In this document: positions 15,145 through 18,981 of the stretch, one piece after another
Position numbering within the stretch: the first letter of the stretch is position 1
How the letters are laid out: each line of letters starts with the position of its first letter
Source: Arcobacter ellisii
GTDB taxonomy: Bacteria; Campylobacterota; Campylobacteria; Campylobacterales; Arcobacteraceae
Reading direction: 5' to 3'
Length of the DNA stretch: 64,000 nucleotides
NCBI RefSeq assembly: GCF_003544915.1
Contig: NZ_CP032097.1
Coordinates: 682,001 to 746,000 of the forward strand
Made by a program: the position numbers and the translations under genes
The notes under the pieces: model-generated
The model's database searches: none
What the model saw: only the letters and a program-made list of their open reading frames with translations
What the model was told of the DNA's origin: nothing

Positions 15145-16104
15145 ATGAAAATAATTAGAAAAAAATCTTGGCAATTAAATGAAAATCTTGTAACTTCTAA
15201 AGAATTATTTGAAAAAAGAAGAAGTTTTATAAAACTTGGAGCTGCTACACTTGTATCAAGTGGAGCTATTATGGAACTTTTTGCAAATGAAAAATTACCT
15301 ACAGAAACTTTAACTTATATAAAAGATAAAAATATAAATAATCTAAAATTAAATACATATGAACAAATAACTTCTCATAATAATTTTTATGAATTTACTA
15401 CAAAACAAAGTGCCGTAAAAGATATGGCACACACTTTGAAAACGGAAAACTGGAAAGTAACAATTGATGGTTTAGTTGAAAAACCAATGGAAGTTGATTT
15501 AGATGATTTAGTAAAAATGTTTGATATTGAAGAGAGAATTTACAGATTTAGATGTGTTGAAGGTTGGTCTATGGTTGTTCCTTGGAATGGATTTACACTT
15601 TCTAGTTTAATAAAAAAAGTAAAACCACTTTCAAATGCAAAATATTTAAGATTTGAAACTTTAGTTGATAAAGATAGTTTCCCTGACCAAAACAGAGGCG
15701 TATTTGCAACACTTGATTATCCTTATGTTGAAGGATTACGAATGGATGAAGCTATGAATGATTTATCTTTTTTAGCTATTGGATTATATGGCGAAGTAAT
15801 GCCAAAACAAAATGGCGCACCAATAAGACTTGTAGTTCCTTGGAAATATGGATTTAAGTCAATTAAATCAATAGTAAAAATCTCTTTTGTAGAAAAAGAA
15901 CCACTTAATACTTGGCAAATACAAAATCCAAAAGAGTATGGTTTTTATGCAAATGTAAATCCAAATGTTGACCATCCAAGATGGTCTCAAAAAAAAGAGC
16001 GAGTTTTAGGAAGTTTTTTAAAACAAAACACTTTGATGTTTAATGGTTATGAAAAAGAAGTTGCAAGTTTGTATAAAAATATGGATTTAACAAAGTATTT
16101 CTAA
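15145..16104 (+). CDS. msrP: Periplasmic methionine sulfoxide reductase, molybdopterin subunit
   Basis: A 319-residue molybdoenzyme of the MsrP (YedY) family that repairs oxidised methionines in periplasmic proteins. The Tat signal has RRSFIK at 25-30. The molybdenum-ligating Cys137 lies in YRFRCVEGWSMVVPW. The tail WKYGFKSIKSIVKI and HPRWSQKKERVLG are family-typical. It overlaps msrQ by one base, and together they form the standard two-gene system driven by quinol electrons through MsrQ. Confidence 0.93.
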   Translation: MKIIRKKSWQLNENLVTSKELFEKRRSFIKLGAATLVSSGAIMELFANEKLPTETLTYIKDKNINNLKLNTYEQITSHNNFYEFTTKQSAVKDMAHTLKTENWKVTIDGLVEKPMEVDLDDLVKMFDIEERIYRFRCVEGWSMVVPWNGFTLSSLIKKVKPLSNAKYLRFETLVDKDSFPDQNRGVFATLDYPYVEGLRMDEAMNDLSFLAIGLYGEVMPKQNGAPIRLVVPWKYGFKSIKSIVKISFVEKEPLNTWQIQNPKEYGFYANVNPNVDHPRWSQKKERVLGSFLKQNTLMFNGYEKEVASLYKNMDLTKYF

Positions 16105-16661
16105 TGGTACGATTTTTTATATATTTATTAAGTTTAGCTCCTCTTATTTACTTAAATGTTAACTTATTTATATTTGATAATGTAAATGACCCAATTAAGT
16201 ACATCTATACAATAACAGGTGGAACGGCAACTTTAATACTATTTTTTACAATTTTAATTTCACTACTTAAAGAGAAAATAAATTTAATGAAATATAGAAA
16301 AGAAGTAGGACTTTTAGGATTTTTTTATGCTTTATTACATCTTTTAAATTTTGTAGTTTTAGATGCTTCTTTTGATTTAGATTTTATTATGAAAGAGACT
16401 ATTGAAAAACCATTTATATATCTTGGAATGATTGCTTTTTTTATAGTTTTATTTATGTTTATAACTTCAACAAAACAACTTTTTAGAAAATATAATAAAT
16501 ATCATAAATTAATATATTTAGCTTTGATTTTAATAACAATTCACTGGATAATGGCACAAAAATCAATAAATATTTCCCAATATGTATATATAGGAGTTAT
16601 TTTATTACTTGGATATTATAAACTTTTACAACAAATAGAGAAGAATATAAATAAGTCCTAA
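16104..16661 (+). CDS. msrQ: Heme-binding membrane subunit MsrQ
   Basis: A 185-residue inner-membrane protein with about five hydrophobic segments, of the ferric-reductase-like MsrQ family. It passes electrons to MsrP. Candidate heme-ligating His residues are in YALLHLLNF, KYHKLIYLA and ITIHWIMA. Its ATG shares a base with the msrP stop codon, showing translational coupling. Length is close to the E. coli protein (about 210). Confidence 0.88.
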   Translation: MVRFFIYLLSLAPLIYLNVNLFIFDNVNDPIKYIYTITGGTATLILFFTILISLLKEKINLMKYRKEVGLLGFFYALLHLLNFVVLDASFDLDFIMKETIEKPFIYLGMIAFFIVLFMFITSTKQLFRKYNKYHKLIYLALILITIHWIMAQKSINISQYVYIGVILLLGYYKLLQQIEKNINKS

Positions 16662-16721
16662 ATTAAATTCAAGTTAACTCTTGGTTAATTTTTTATTAGA
16701 TTTTAGTTAATGTTGAGTGAT

Positions 16722-16727
16722 TATAAT
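16722..16727 (+). promoter_or_regulatory. -10 box of predicted small RNA
   Basis: An exact TATAAT in T-rich sequence, placing transcription start near 16734 at the base of a long hairpin. No ribosome site or convincing open frame follows before the terminator at 16813-16841. Confidence 0.5.
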
Positions 16728-16733
16728 TTACTT

Positions 16734-16841
16734 ATAGATAAGTTGACGCAGCGGCTTATTTATAAGATAAGATTTCTTAAATAGATAATTTTTTATGTTT
16801 CCTTGTGTAAAGAAGGATGTCTCCCCTGGGCATCCTTTTTT
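16734..16841 (+). ncRNA. Predicted small RNA or leader RNA, about 108 nt
   Basis: An orphan transcription unit in a 259-base gap. After the -10 box comes a hairpin whose 12-base arms (16731-16742 and 16755-16766) pair with one G-U and enclose a GC-rich loop TTGACGCAGCGG. An AT-rich linker follows, then an intrinsic terminator: AAGGATG (16813-16819) pairs with CATCCTT (16831-16837) around a C/U-rich loop TCTCCCCTGGG, with a T-run. The AAGGA half can alternatively pair with TCCTT at 16800-16804, so termination could be conditional. A C/U-rich terminator loop recalls the Helicobacter RepG RNA. Alternative: a regulated 5' leader of the helicase gene 80 bases downstream. Confidence 0.5.
16813..16841 (+). 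terminator. Intrinsic terminator with C-rich loop and no upstream ORF
   Basis: A seven-base GC-containing stem (AAGGATG with CATCCTT), an 11-base loop and six T's. It lies about 150 bases past the msrQ stop with a promoter-like box in between, so it is assigned to the predicted RNA rather than to msrQ. Confidence 0.8.
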
Positions 16842-16920
16842 ATTTTCAAATTGTCTTAAATCTTTTATGCTACTATTGCGAAATGATTAAACTTTTAAAA
16901 AATACAAATAACTAAATCCT

Positions 16921-18981
16921 ATGCCTTTATCAAACCTAAATCAAGAACAACTAGAAGCGGCAACTTGTCCCTATGGTTTTAACCTTATTATTGCAAGTGC
17001 TGGAACAGGAAAAACTTCTACAATAGTTGGACGAATTGCAAACTTAATAAATAATGGTGTTAAACCTAATCAAATATTACTTTTAACCTTTACAAACAAA
17101 GCAGCAGCTGAAATGGTAGCAAGGGTTGCTAAATTTTTTGGAAAAGATATTGCCAAACAAATTATGGCTGGAACTTTTCACTCTGTTTCTTACAAACTTT
17201 TAAAAGAACTAAATGTAAATATTACTTTAAAACAACCAAATGAATTAAAAACACTTTTTAAATCTATTTATGAAAAAAGAGTTTTTATGGAAAGAGATGA
17301 TGAAGCAAGTCCTTATGATGGTGGATATTTGTATGATATGTACTCTTTATATTTAAACTCAAATGATGGTGAAGATTTTGCTTCATGGATAAAATCAAAA
17401 AATGCAAGTCATGAAATTTATACTTTGATTTATGAAGATGTAGTTGCTGAATTTCATGAATTAAAAACAAAATATGGTTATGCAAATTTTGATGATTTAT
17501 TAACAATTATGCTTGAAACTTTAAAAGAAAAAGAGTTTGATTTTAAAGAAATTTTAGTAGATGAATATCAAGATACAAATCCTTTACAAGGAAGATTACT
17601 TGATGGATTTAGACCAAAATCACTTTTTTGTGTAGGTGATTATGACCAAAGTATTTATGCTTTTAATGGGTCTGATATTGGAATTATTTCAACTTTTGCA
17701 AAAAGATATGAAAATGCAAAAGTATTTACTCTTAGAAAAAATTACCGTTCAACAAAACCAATCTTAGATTTAGCAACAAAAGTTATTGAATTTAATGAAA
17801 GAGTTTATGAAAAAAAACTTGAAGTTGTAAGAACTCAAGATGAACATAAACCAAAATTATTAGCTTTTAATGAACTTTTTTCTCAATATGAATATATCTC
17901 ACAATTAATTTCAAAAAGTGAAACACCTCATAGTGAAATTGCAATTATTTATAGAAATAACTCTAGTGCAGACGGAATAGAAGCAAATTTGAGGGAGTTT
18001 TCAATTCCTGCACGTAGAAAAGGTGGAATGAGCTTTTTTGACTCTGTAGAAGTTAAATTTATTCTTGATGTTTTAGTTATGCAACTTTCACATAATGATA
18101 TGATGGCTTTTATTCACGTTGTTGAGCATGGAAAAGGGATTGGAAAAGCAATCGCAAAAGATGTATTTGATGCTCTAATGAGACTTGGAGATGGGGATAT
18201 TTTAAAAGGTTTATTCCAACCACGAAGTGACATAAATAATCCTTATGAAACAGGAAGAATCAAAAATCAGCAATTAGGGTTATTTGATGATTTTATTGAG
18301 TTAGGTTCTGTTTCAAAATTTAAAGATTGTAATTTTGAAGAGGCATTTTTAGGGAATCCAATATTAAAACATCCAAAACTAAATGTTGATGGAGGAAAAT
18401 ATCTTTATGATATTTATTTATTAATGAAACATTTAAGAAGAACAAAAAATCCTGAGACATTGGTTGGAAATATTATCTCTTCTATGGCTTATTCTAAGTT
18501 AAAAGATTTTTTATCAACAAAAAGAGCAACTCAAAAAGATGGAACTATAAATCCAATGCAAAAAACAAAAGCCCTAGCTAAAATAAATAGAAAAGGTATG
18601 CTTTTAAAAAATCTTTCAAGAAACTTTAATGACCTCTCAAAATTTATTAACTCTATGATTTTAGGTGGAAGTGAGATGAGTGAAGGTGATGGAGTAAATC
18701 TACTTTCTATTCATGCAAGTAAAGGTTTGGAGTTTAAAGAAGTTTATGTAATAGATTTAATGGATGGAAGATTTCCAAATCGAAAACTTATGAGTAAAGG
18801 TGGAAGCATAGAAGAAGAGAGACGTCTTTTTTACGTTGCAGTTACAAGGGCAAAAGATATCTTATATCTTTCATATGCAAAGTATGACAAGATAAAAAAG
18901 CTTACTTTTGTAGCAAGTCCTTTCTTAAAAGAAGCAGGAATGCAAATAAAAGACGAAGACGAATCTTCTATTCAAGAGTAA
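16921..18981 (+). CDS. UvrD/Rep-family superfamily 1 DNA helicase
   Basis: A 686-residue ATP-dependent 3'-5' DNA helicase. All SF1A motifs are visible: Q-motif LNQEQLEAA, Walker A ASAGTGKT (26-33), motif II LVDEYQDTNPLQ, motif III GDYDQSIYAFNG, motif IV LRKNYRS, motif V SIHASKGLEFKEVYVI and motif VI RRLFYVAVTRAK. This points to a Rep/UvrD/PcrA role in replication restart or repair. No clear Shine-Dalgarno precedes the ATG, but it is the first in-frame ATG after the upstream RNA terminator. It is followed 38 bases later by an antiporter gene. Confidence 0.92.
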   Translation: MPLSNLNQEQLEAATCPYGFNLIIASAGTGKTSTIVGRIANLINNGVKPNQILLLTFTNKAAAEMVARVAKFFGKDIAKQIMAGTFHSVSYKLLKELNVNITLKQPNELKTLFKSIYEKRVFMERDDEASPYDGGYLYDMYSLYLNSNDGEDFASWIKSKNASHEIYTLIYEDVVAEFHELKTKYGYANFDDLLTIMLETLKEKEFDFKEILVDEYQDTNPLQGRLLDGFRPKSLFCVGDYDQSIYAFNGSDIGIISTFAKRYENAKVFTLRKNYRSTKPILDLATKVIEFNERVYEKKLEVVRTQDEHKPKLLAFNELFSQYEYISQLISKSETPHSEIAIIYRNNSSADGIEANLREFSIPARRKGGMSFFDSVEVKFILDVLVMQLSHNDMMAFIHVVEHGKGIGKAIAKDVFDALMRLGDGDILKGLFQPRSDINNPYETGRIKNQQLGLFDDFIELGSVSKFKDCNFEEAFLGNPILKHPKLNVDGGKYLYDIYLLMKHLRRTKNPETLVGNIISSMAYSKLKDFLSTKRATQKDGTINPMQKTKALAKINRKGMLLKNLSRNFNDLSKFINSMILGGSEMSEGDGVNLLSIHASKGLEFKEVYVIDLMDGRFPNRKLMSKGGSIEEERRLFYVAVTRAKDILYLSYAKYDKIKKLTFVASPFLKEAGMQIKDEDESSIQE

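Follow-up and report, generated by a model that had tools for sequence, protein, structure and literature searches.

A conserved small RNA locus of Arcobacteraceae with a predicted anti-Shine-Dalgarno seed for TonB-dependent receptor genes

Our analysis suggests that positions 16734..16841 on the + strand of the window, i.e. the whole 64,000-nucleotide stretch of Arcobacter ellisii DNA analysed here, most likely encode a trans-acting, base-pairing small RNA, which would found a new family in the Arcobacteraceae and repress TonB-dependent receptors along with certain other proteins of the outer membrane. The predicted transcript of ~108 nt is supported by conservation and covariance-model matches. 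Its start at 16734 was placed 7 nt past the -10 element TATAAT (16722..16727, + strand), a sequence kept in the alignment, and we infer from these features that the locus is transcribed. On one side of the RNA lie two genes resembling MsrP/MsrQ, on the other a helicase gene of the UvrD type. The + strand of 16730-16848 folds at -35.7 kcal/mol with z = -5.5, and none of 200 shuffles equals it, while the - strand of the same stretch has z = -0.46. No conserved ORF was found in the RNA unit by inspection of the sequence and comparison of species. A leader peptide beginning with ATGTTTCCTTGT was rejected, since its frame and stop vary by species (L017, for one, has MFPC*) and it is not preceded by a ribosome-binding site. 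A generic promoter and terminator scanner reports neither the promoter nor the terminator of the RNA; it misses the promoter because there is no good -35 box upstream of TATAAT, and the terminator because the loop, with the weak inner stem pairs left uncounted, is beyond its allowed length.

The RNA is widespread in the family. BLASTN of 16700-16860 against 60 relatives gave long matches in almost every genome of the genus, and two further genera had them as well. The short BLAST matches elsewhere in the genomes have an AT-rich, chance look, and the core is missing from seven places that were fetched and from one in the window; L034, fetched as the eighth, is a proper syntenic copy. Related genomes were also searched with covariance models. 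Model R1 detected the RNA in 54 of 104 family genomes, and model R2, built solely from the copies of distant genera, detected it in 52, eleven of which are new relative to R1, and also recovered the RNA of the window itself (E 8.4e-4). The union of the two models covers 65 of the 104 sampled family genomes and 30 of the 31 in the genus, the sole genus genome without the RNA being 54% complete. Among 200 genomes scanned at the order level and 397 at the phylum level, the Arcobacteraceae alone gave matches, bar a single weak one of the phylum scan (E 4.5e-4) in G300, a genome of another family. Of the matches listed by a pattern scan of named genomes, none outside the family was convincing as a homologue, those in Pelagibacteraceae and Lachnospiraceae being weak (E 0.008-0.12). 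Two Pelagibacteraceae contigs, L166 and L169, carry the seed and a T-run with R1 E values of 0.02-0.12, probably by chance. No Rfam 15 family reaches its gathering score in the window, the best weak match being L20_leader with 19.2 bits against a cutoff of 58.7. A description of the RNA was not found in the literature searched. A structured-RNA survey including Arcobacter sp. L reports unnamed, genus-restricted intergenic candidates (PMC6429828), which could include our locus.

Other genera have tandem pairs of the RNA, or RNA copies at more than one locus. Diverged further copies in or near the genus were also picked up by R2, namely at G010:C1:2752300-2752417 and 2756880-2756992, G117:C12:274218-274331 and G015:C142:38242-38361. 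Since these R2 copies sit away from the helicase-linked copy where that is known, sibling RNAs are present there too.

Three structural elements were recognized on the + strand of the RNA. Stem-loop 1 (16734..16763, extending over 16731-16766 in this species) has 7 of its 11 pairs changed on both sides with 100% of the alignment cells paired, and the intrinsic terminator (16811..16841, with a stem at ~16811-16840 and T6 at 16836-16841) has both-side changes in all 8 modelled pairs. Taken together, 15 of these 19 pairs are changed on both sides and 98.5% of the cells are paired, a level reached by none of 500 shuffles, though the alignment was fitted to the model and so favours a high pairing score. 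As a further control, the structures were slid along the alignment, where the paired cells fall to 32-57%. Between these two elements lies the short stem-loop 2 (UAAGA...UCUUA, 16763..16779), supported by folds and by comparison of its arms; in distant genera this hairpin is made of other sequence. Relative to the closest relative, L002, ~13 nt have been lost between stem-loops 1 and 2 (window 16764-16779), so that hairpin 1 is longer and hairpin 2 shorter in this species; all close relatives keep the longer inter-hairpin form. The first-pass annotation had proposed a new free-standing small RNA consisting of TATAAT, a 5' hairpin and an intrinsic terminator without an ORF. All of these parts are present, and the fold, the BLASTN conservation and the covariation of both stems bear the proposal out; what had been overlooked is stem-loop 2, the unchanging unpaired core and the direct repeats of the promoter.

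The invariant part of the RNA is the linker before the terminator. A single-stranded 17-mer, UUUUUAUGUUUCCUUGU (16790..16806, + strand), is identical in 30 of 30 aligned genus loci, and GUUUCCUUGUGU is the remnant of this core persisting in distant genera, part of it being lost in the copy L122. The putative anti-Shine-Dalgarno seed GUUUCCUUGUGUA (16797..16809, + strand) is kept in distant genera and is unpaired between stem-loop 2 and the terminator in predicted folds. Its complement, ACACAAGGAAAC, is a Shine-Dalgarno sequence with flanks. The U5AU half is missing from the Halarcobacter-type copies, and hence we take the anti-Shine-Dalgarno half to be the core proper.

The seed has a clear counterpart at the starts of receptor genes. 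An initial search for ACAAGGAAA or CACAAGGA close to ATG kept turning up genes for TonB-dependent receptors and exported proteins of the outer membrane, and the receptors were hence chosen as the class for testing. We collected 89 receptor starts from PF07715 matches in ten RNA-bearing genomes and, as background, 309 gene starts from twenty 20-kb stretches, the starts being called by script and sampled from genome stretches. ACAAGGA is upstream of 20 of the 89 receptors and none of the 309 other genes (p=1.6e-14; our p-values ignore relatedness and are optimistic because both the genomes and the receptor paralogues are related). It ranks top among all 7-mers, the next ones being mostly pieces of the same complement. 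The averaged duplex energies with the RNA are -11.5 and -8.0 kcal/mol for the receptors and the background, respectively. When 7-mers were slid along the whole RNA, those starting at 16794-16802 gave the only strong signal, so that the target enrichment peaks at the seed. The ACAAGGA enrichment also holds for each group by itself, with 8/43 receptors versus 0/155 other genes in the focal genus and 12/46 versus 0/154 in the other genera. The sites overlie the Shine-Dalgarno sequence, mostly 5-11 nt ahead of the start codon, and the long site is present in about a quarter of the receptors only. One of the six receptors in the own genome has ACAAGGA and a second carries AAGGAAACAU; the receptor leader at G000:862335 of this genome reads ACAAGGAAAAAAT-ATG.

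Could the RNA be a real anti-Shine-Dalgarno small RNA with its true targets elsewhere, the receptor signal reflecting general ribosome-binding-site strength or ancestry? Receptors are paralogues and AAGGA is indeed commoner among them (53/89 versus 91/309 for the other genes), but we consider this explanation unlikely. Among the starts having AAGGA, the seed-specific AC prefix is found in 19 of 53 receptors and in 0 of 91 others, and the real seed beats 150 of 150 flank-shuffled seeds in which CCUU was retained. The receptor leaders are otherwise dissimilar, and the enrichment outlasts de-duplication of similar leaders. The site is also missing from the receptors of genomes without the RNA: CAAGGA is present at 0 of 60 receptors there, compared with 25 of 89 in RNA-bearing genomes (p 5e-7), and at 2 of 121 other genes in the former. 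This negative set comprises twelve genomes without a detectable RNA copy, ten of them having receptor genes, and based on these counts the receptor ribosome-binding sites track the presence of the RNA. As the target idea came from three of the ten tested genomes, a fairer test is provided by the other genomes and by the negative set.

The raw genome-wide count of loose seed matches (2-mismatch) is not above that of a reversed-pattern control. Several single candidates were set aside. The best 14-mer target of the own genome (G000:C1:1461583-1461596, - strand; L040 1501-1514) is not at an evident gene start; the stretch around this site, ACAAGGAAATATAA, which pairs with a single G-U, is apparently non-coding and rich in hairpins, and the site may be sponge-like or a chance match. 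A Tpx-like gene pair has a 13-bp match, which is accounted for by the upstream gene, whose coding sequence ends in HKEIL*. RibF, with ACAAGGAAAAGATG in several genera, is a single gene whose sequence around the start is near-identical anyway.

We propose the following mechanism for the RNA as a repressor of receptor synthesis. The two 5' hairpins and the terminator hairpin would present the unpaired U-rich core UUUUUAUGUUUCCUUGUGUA, the 3' half of which would pair with the Shine-Dalgarno region ACACAAGGAAA of receptor and some outer-membrane mRNAs. In the species with U5AU, the 5' half could also pair over the start codon and the first Lys codons (AUGAAAAA), and with both the Shine-Dalgarno sequence and the start codon masked, translation initiation would be blocked. 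The duplexes predicted in the own genome have this layout, with the 3' half on ACAAGGAAA, then a bulge, and the U-rich 5' half on AUGAAAAA, suggesting that the 5' half contributes to pairing. The genes with such bulged duplexes encode a TonB receptor and TolC-type, outer-membrane-like and DUF4198-like proteins, and duplexes are also predicted for Tsx-type and other outer-membrane-type genes. Since the invariant core matches the receptor ribosome-binding sites, receptor production is probably lowered, and the effect on the receptors would thus be repression. Pairing by itself does not give the direction of regulation, and the RNA could in principle activate or stabilise the receptor mRNAs or be titrated by them. 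This is quite improbable, however, with predicted sites that lie on the Shine-Dalgarno sequence at the distances given above, as pairing there normally blocks initiation. Palindromic boxes resembling GATAAT/ATTATC, such as Fur control would lead one to expect, were also observed in many receptor leaders, and iron and the RNA may therefore act on the same genes, at the levels of transcription and translation, respectively.

A pairing function had originally been assigned to the C/U-rich loop of the terminator, a design known from RepG, which is encoded between hp1043 and hp1044 and for which homologues outside Helicobacter were not found (PMC8295292). The ability to pair with ribosome sites stands, with the linker seed instead of the loop as the pairing part. 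RepG is a small RNA of the same phylum, and the loop here, UCUCCCCUGGG (16820-16830), is similarly C/U-rich; one clade has UUCCCCUAGG. The C/U-rich form is however restricted to some species, and in most others the loop differs in both length and sequence (AAAA, GAAA, AAGAG etc.). No 7-mer of the loop is enriched at the tested receptor starts, so the loop lacks the target signal of the seed, and the RNA is not located between the homologues of hp1043 and hp1044. Hence we regard a RepG-like use of the loop as very unlikely, the invariant part being the linker.

The same annotation had raised the alternative that the RNA is a cis-acting attenuator or leader of the downstream gene, switching between the terminator and an alternative stem. 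This gene (16921..18981, + strand) encodes a UvrD/REP-type helicase with the Pfam domains UvrD-helicase and UvrD_C, lies outside the RNA unit and is found 3' of the RNA in every genus locus examined. An alternative stem can be drawn in this species between UCCUU at 16800-16804 and AAGGA at 16813-16817; however it is not conserved, because the terminator's 5' arm that provides one of its strands changes freely between species, and the terminator is predicted to be stable. Past the terminator the helicase gene has its own promoter-like block, TTTTATGCTACTATTGCGAAATGAT (16863..16890, + strand), which is kept in all aligned loci and includes a putative -10-like TACTAT at 16871-16876. Moreover, other genera have tandem copies as well as copies apart from the helicase; for some RNA copies, in several genomes, the flanking stretches that were fetched contain no helicase. 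Some copies there adjoin ureG-like, short-chain-dehydrogenase-like, cytochrome-like or aminotransferase-like genes, as named from translations instead of a family search. Based on the tandem and helicase-free sibling copies and the helicase's own promoter-like block, attenuation of the helicase is not the function of the family, and we give this alternative hardly any weight. On the upstream side, the MsrP/MsrQ-like pair (a molybdopterin-type oxidoreductase and a Ferric_reduct membrane protein; window 15145-16661) precedes the RNA in part of the genomes only.

The promoter of the RNA has an upstream box at 16674..16711 (+ strand), a putative activator site with the four half-sites TTAAC/TTAAT/TTAGA/TTAAT. 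The half-sites start at 16674, 16685, 16696 and 16707, giving an exact period of 11 bp, and the final one ends 10 bp upstream of TATAAT. The RNA locus is the sole place in the own genome with the full pattern; the 11-bp spacing recurs before RNA copies in other genera, and one subclade retains two half-sites. Direct repeats with an 11-bp period are typical of OmpR/PhoB-family response regulators, and these TTAAY-like half-sites suggest control of the RNA by a regulator of this family. A fuller model, which we put forward tentatively, is a regulon spanning the family, in which sibling RNAs under a dedicated OmpR-type regulator clamp the Shine-Dalgarno sequence and AUG-Lys of many outer-membrane receptors, the ribosome-binding sites of this entire protein class having co-evolved with a single invariant RNA core, possibly without the need for Hfq.

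The RNA most likely resembles two known systems in its mode of action, without detectable kinship to them. OmrA/OmrB of Enterobacterales are sibling small RNAs that lower TonB-dependent receptors such as CirA, FecA and FepA under an OmpR-type regulator (PMC12692685). Our RNA similarly has sibling copies, predicted receptor targets and an 11-bp direct-repeat promoter; the two differ in that OmrA/OmrB work with Hfq, pair through a seed at the 5' end and target fepA within the coding sequence, whereas the seed here is internal and anti-Shine-Dalgarno, and there is no Rfam match to the OmrA/OmrB family. ChvR of Caulobacter, under the ChvI-ChvG two-component system, represses a TonB-dependent receptor without Hfq (PMC6237742). 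It belongs to a different phylum and was reported to have the single target ChvT with two pairing sites, in contrast to the many receptors and one shared seed predicted here. Within the phylum, CJnc230 of Campylobacter jejuni also has an anti-Shine-Dalgarno CCUU single strand between two stem-loops (PMC11187230), comparable to 16797-16809 here. The gene for CJnc230 lies downstream of flgE and is RpoN-dependent, and its targets are flagellar genes, whereas our RNA has three hairpins, other neighbours, a TATAAT promoter and predicted receptor targets.

What is known of small RNAs in Campylobacterota comes mainly from Helicobacter and Campylobacter, and in the literature searched we found no description of a small RNA that regulates TonB-dependent receptors in this phylum. 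The RNA reported here offers a concrete seed, a promoter box and a candidate regulon of nutrient and iron receptors, to which further outer-membrane proteins may belong. Each of these can be tested directly. It is also a case of ribosome-binding sites that track, from genus to genus, whether a small RNA is present.
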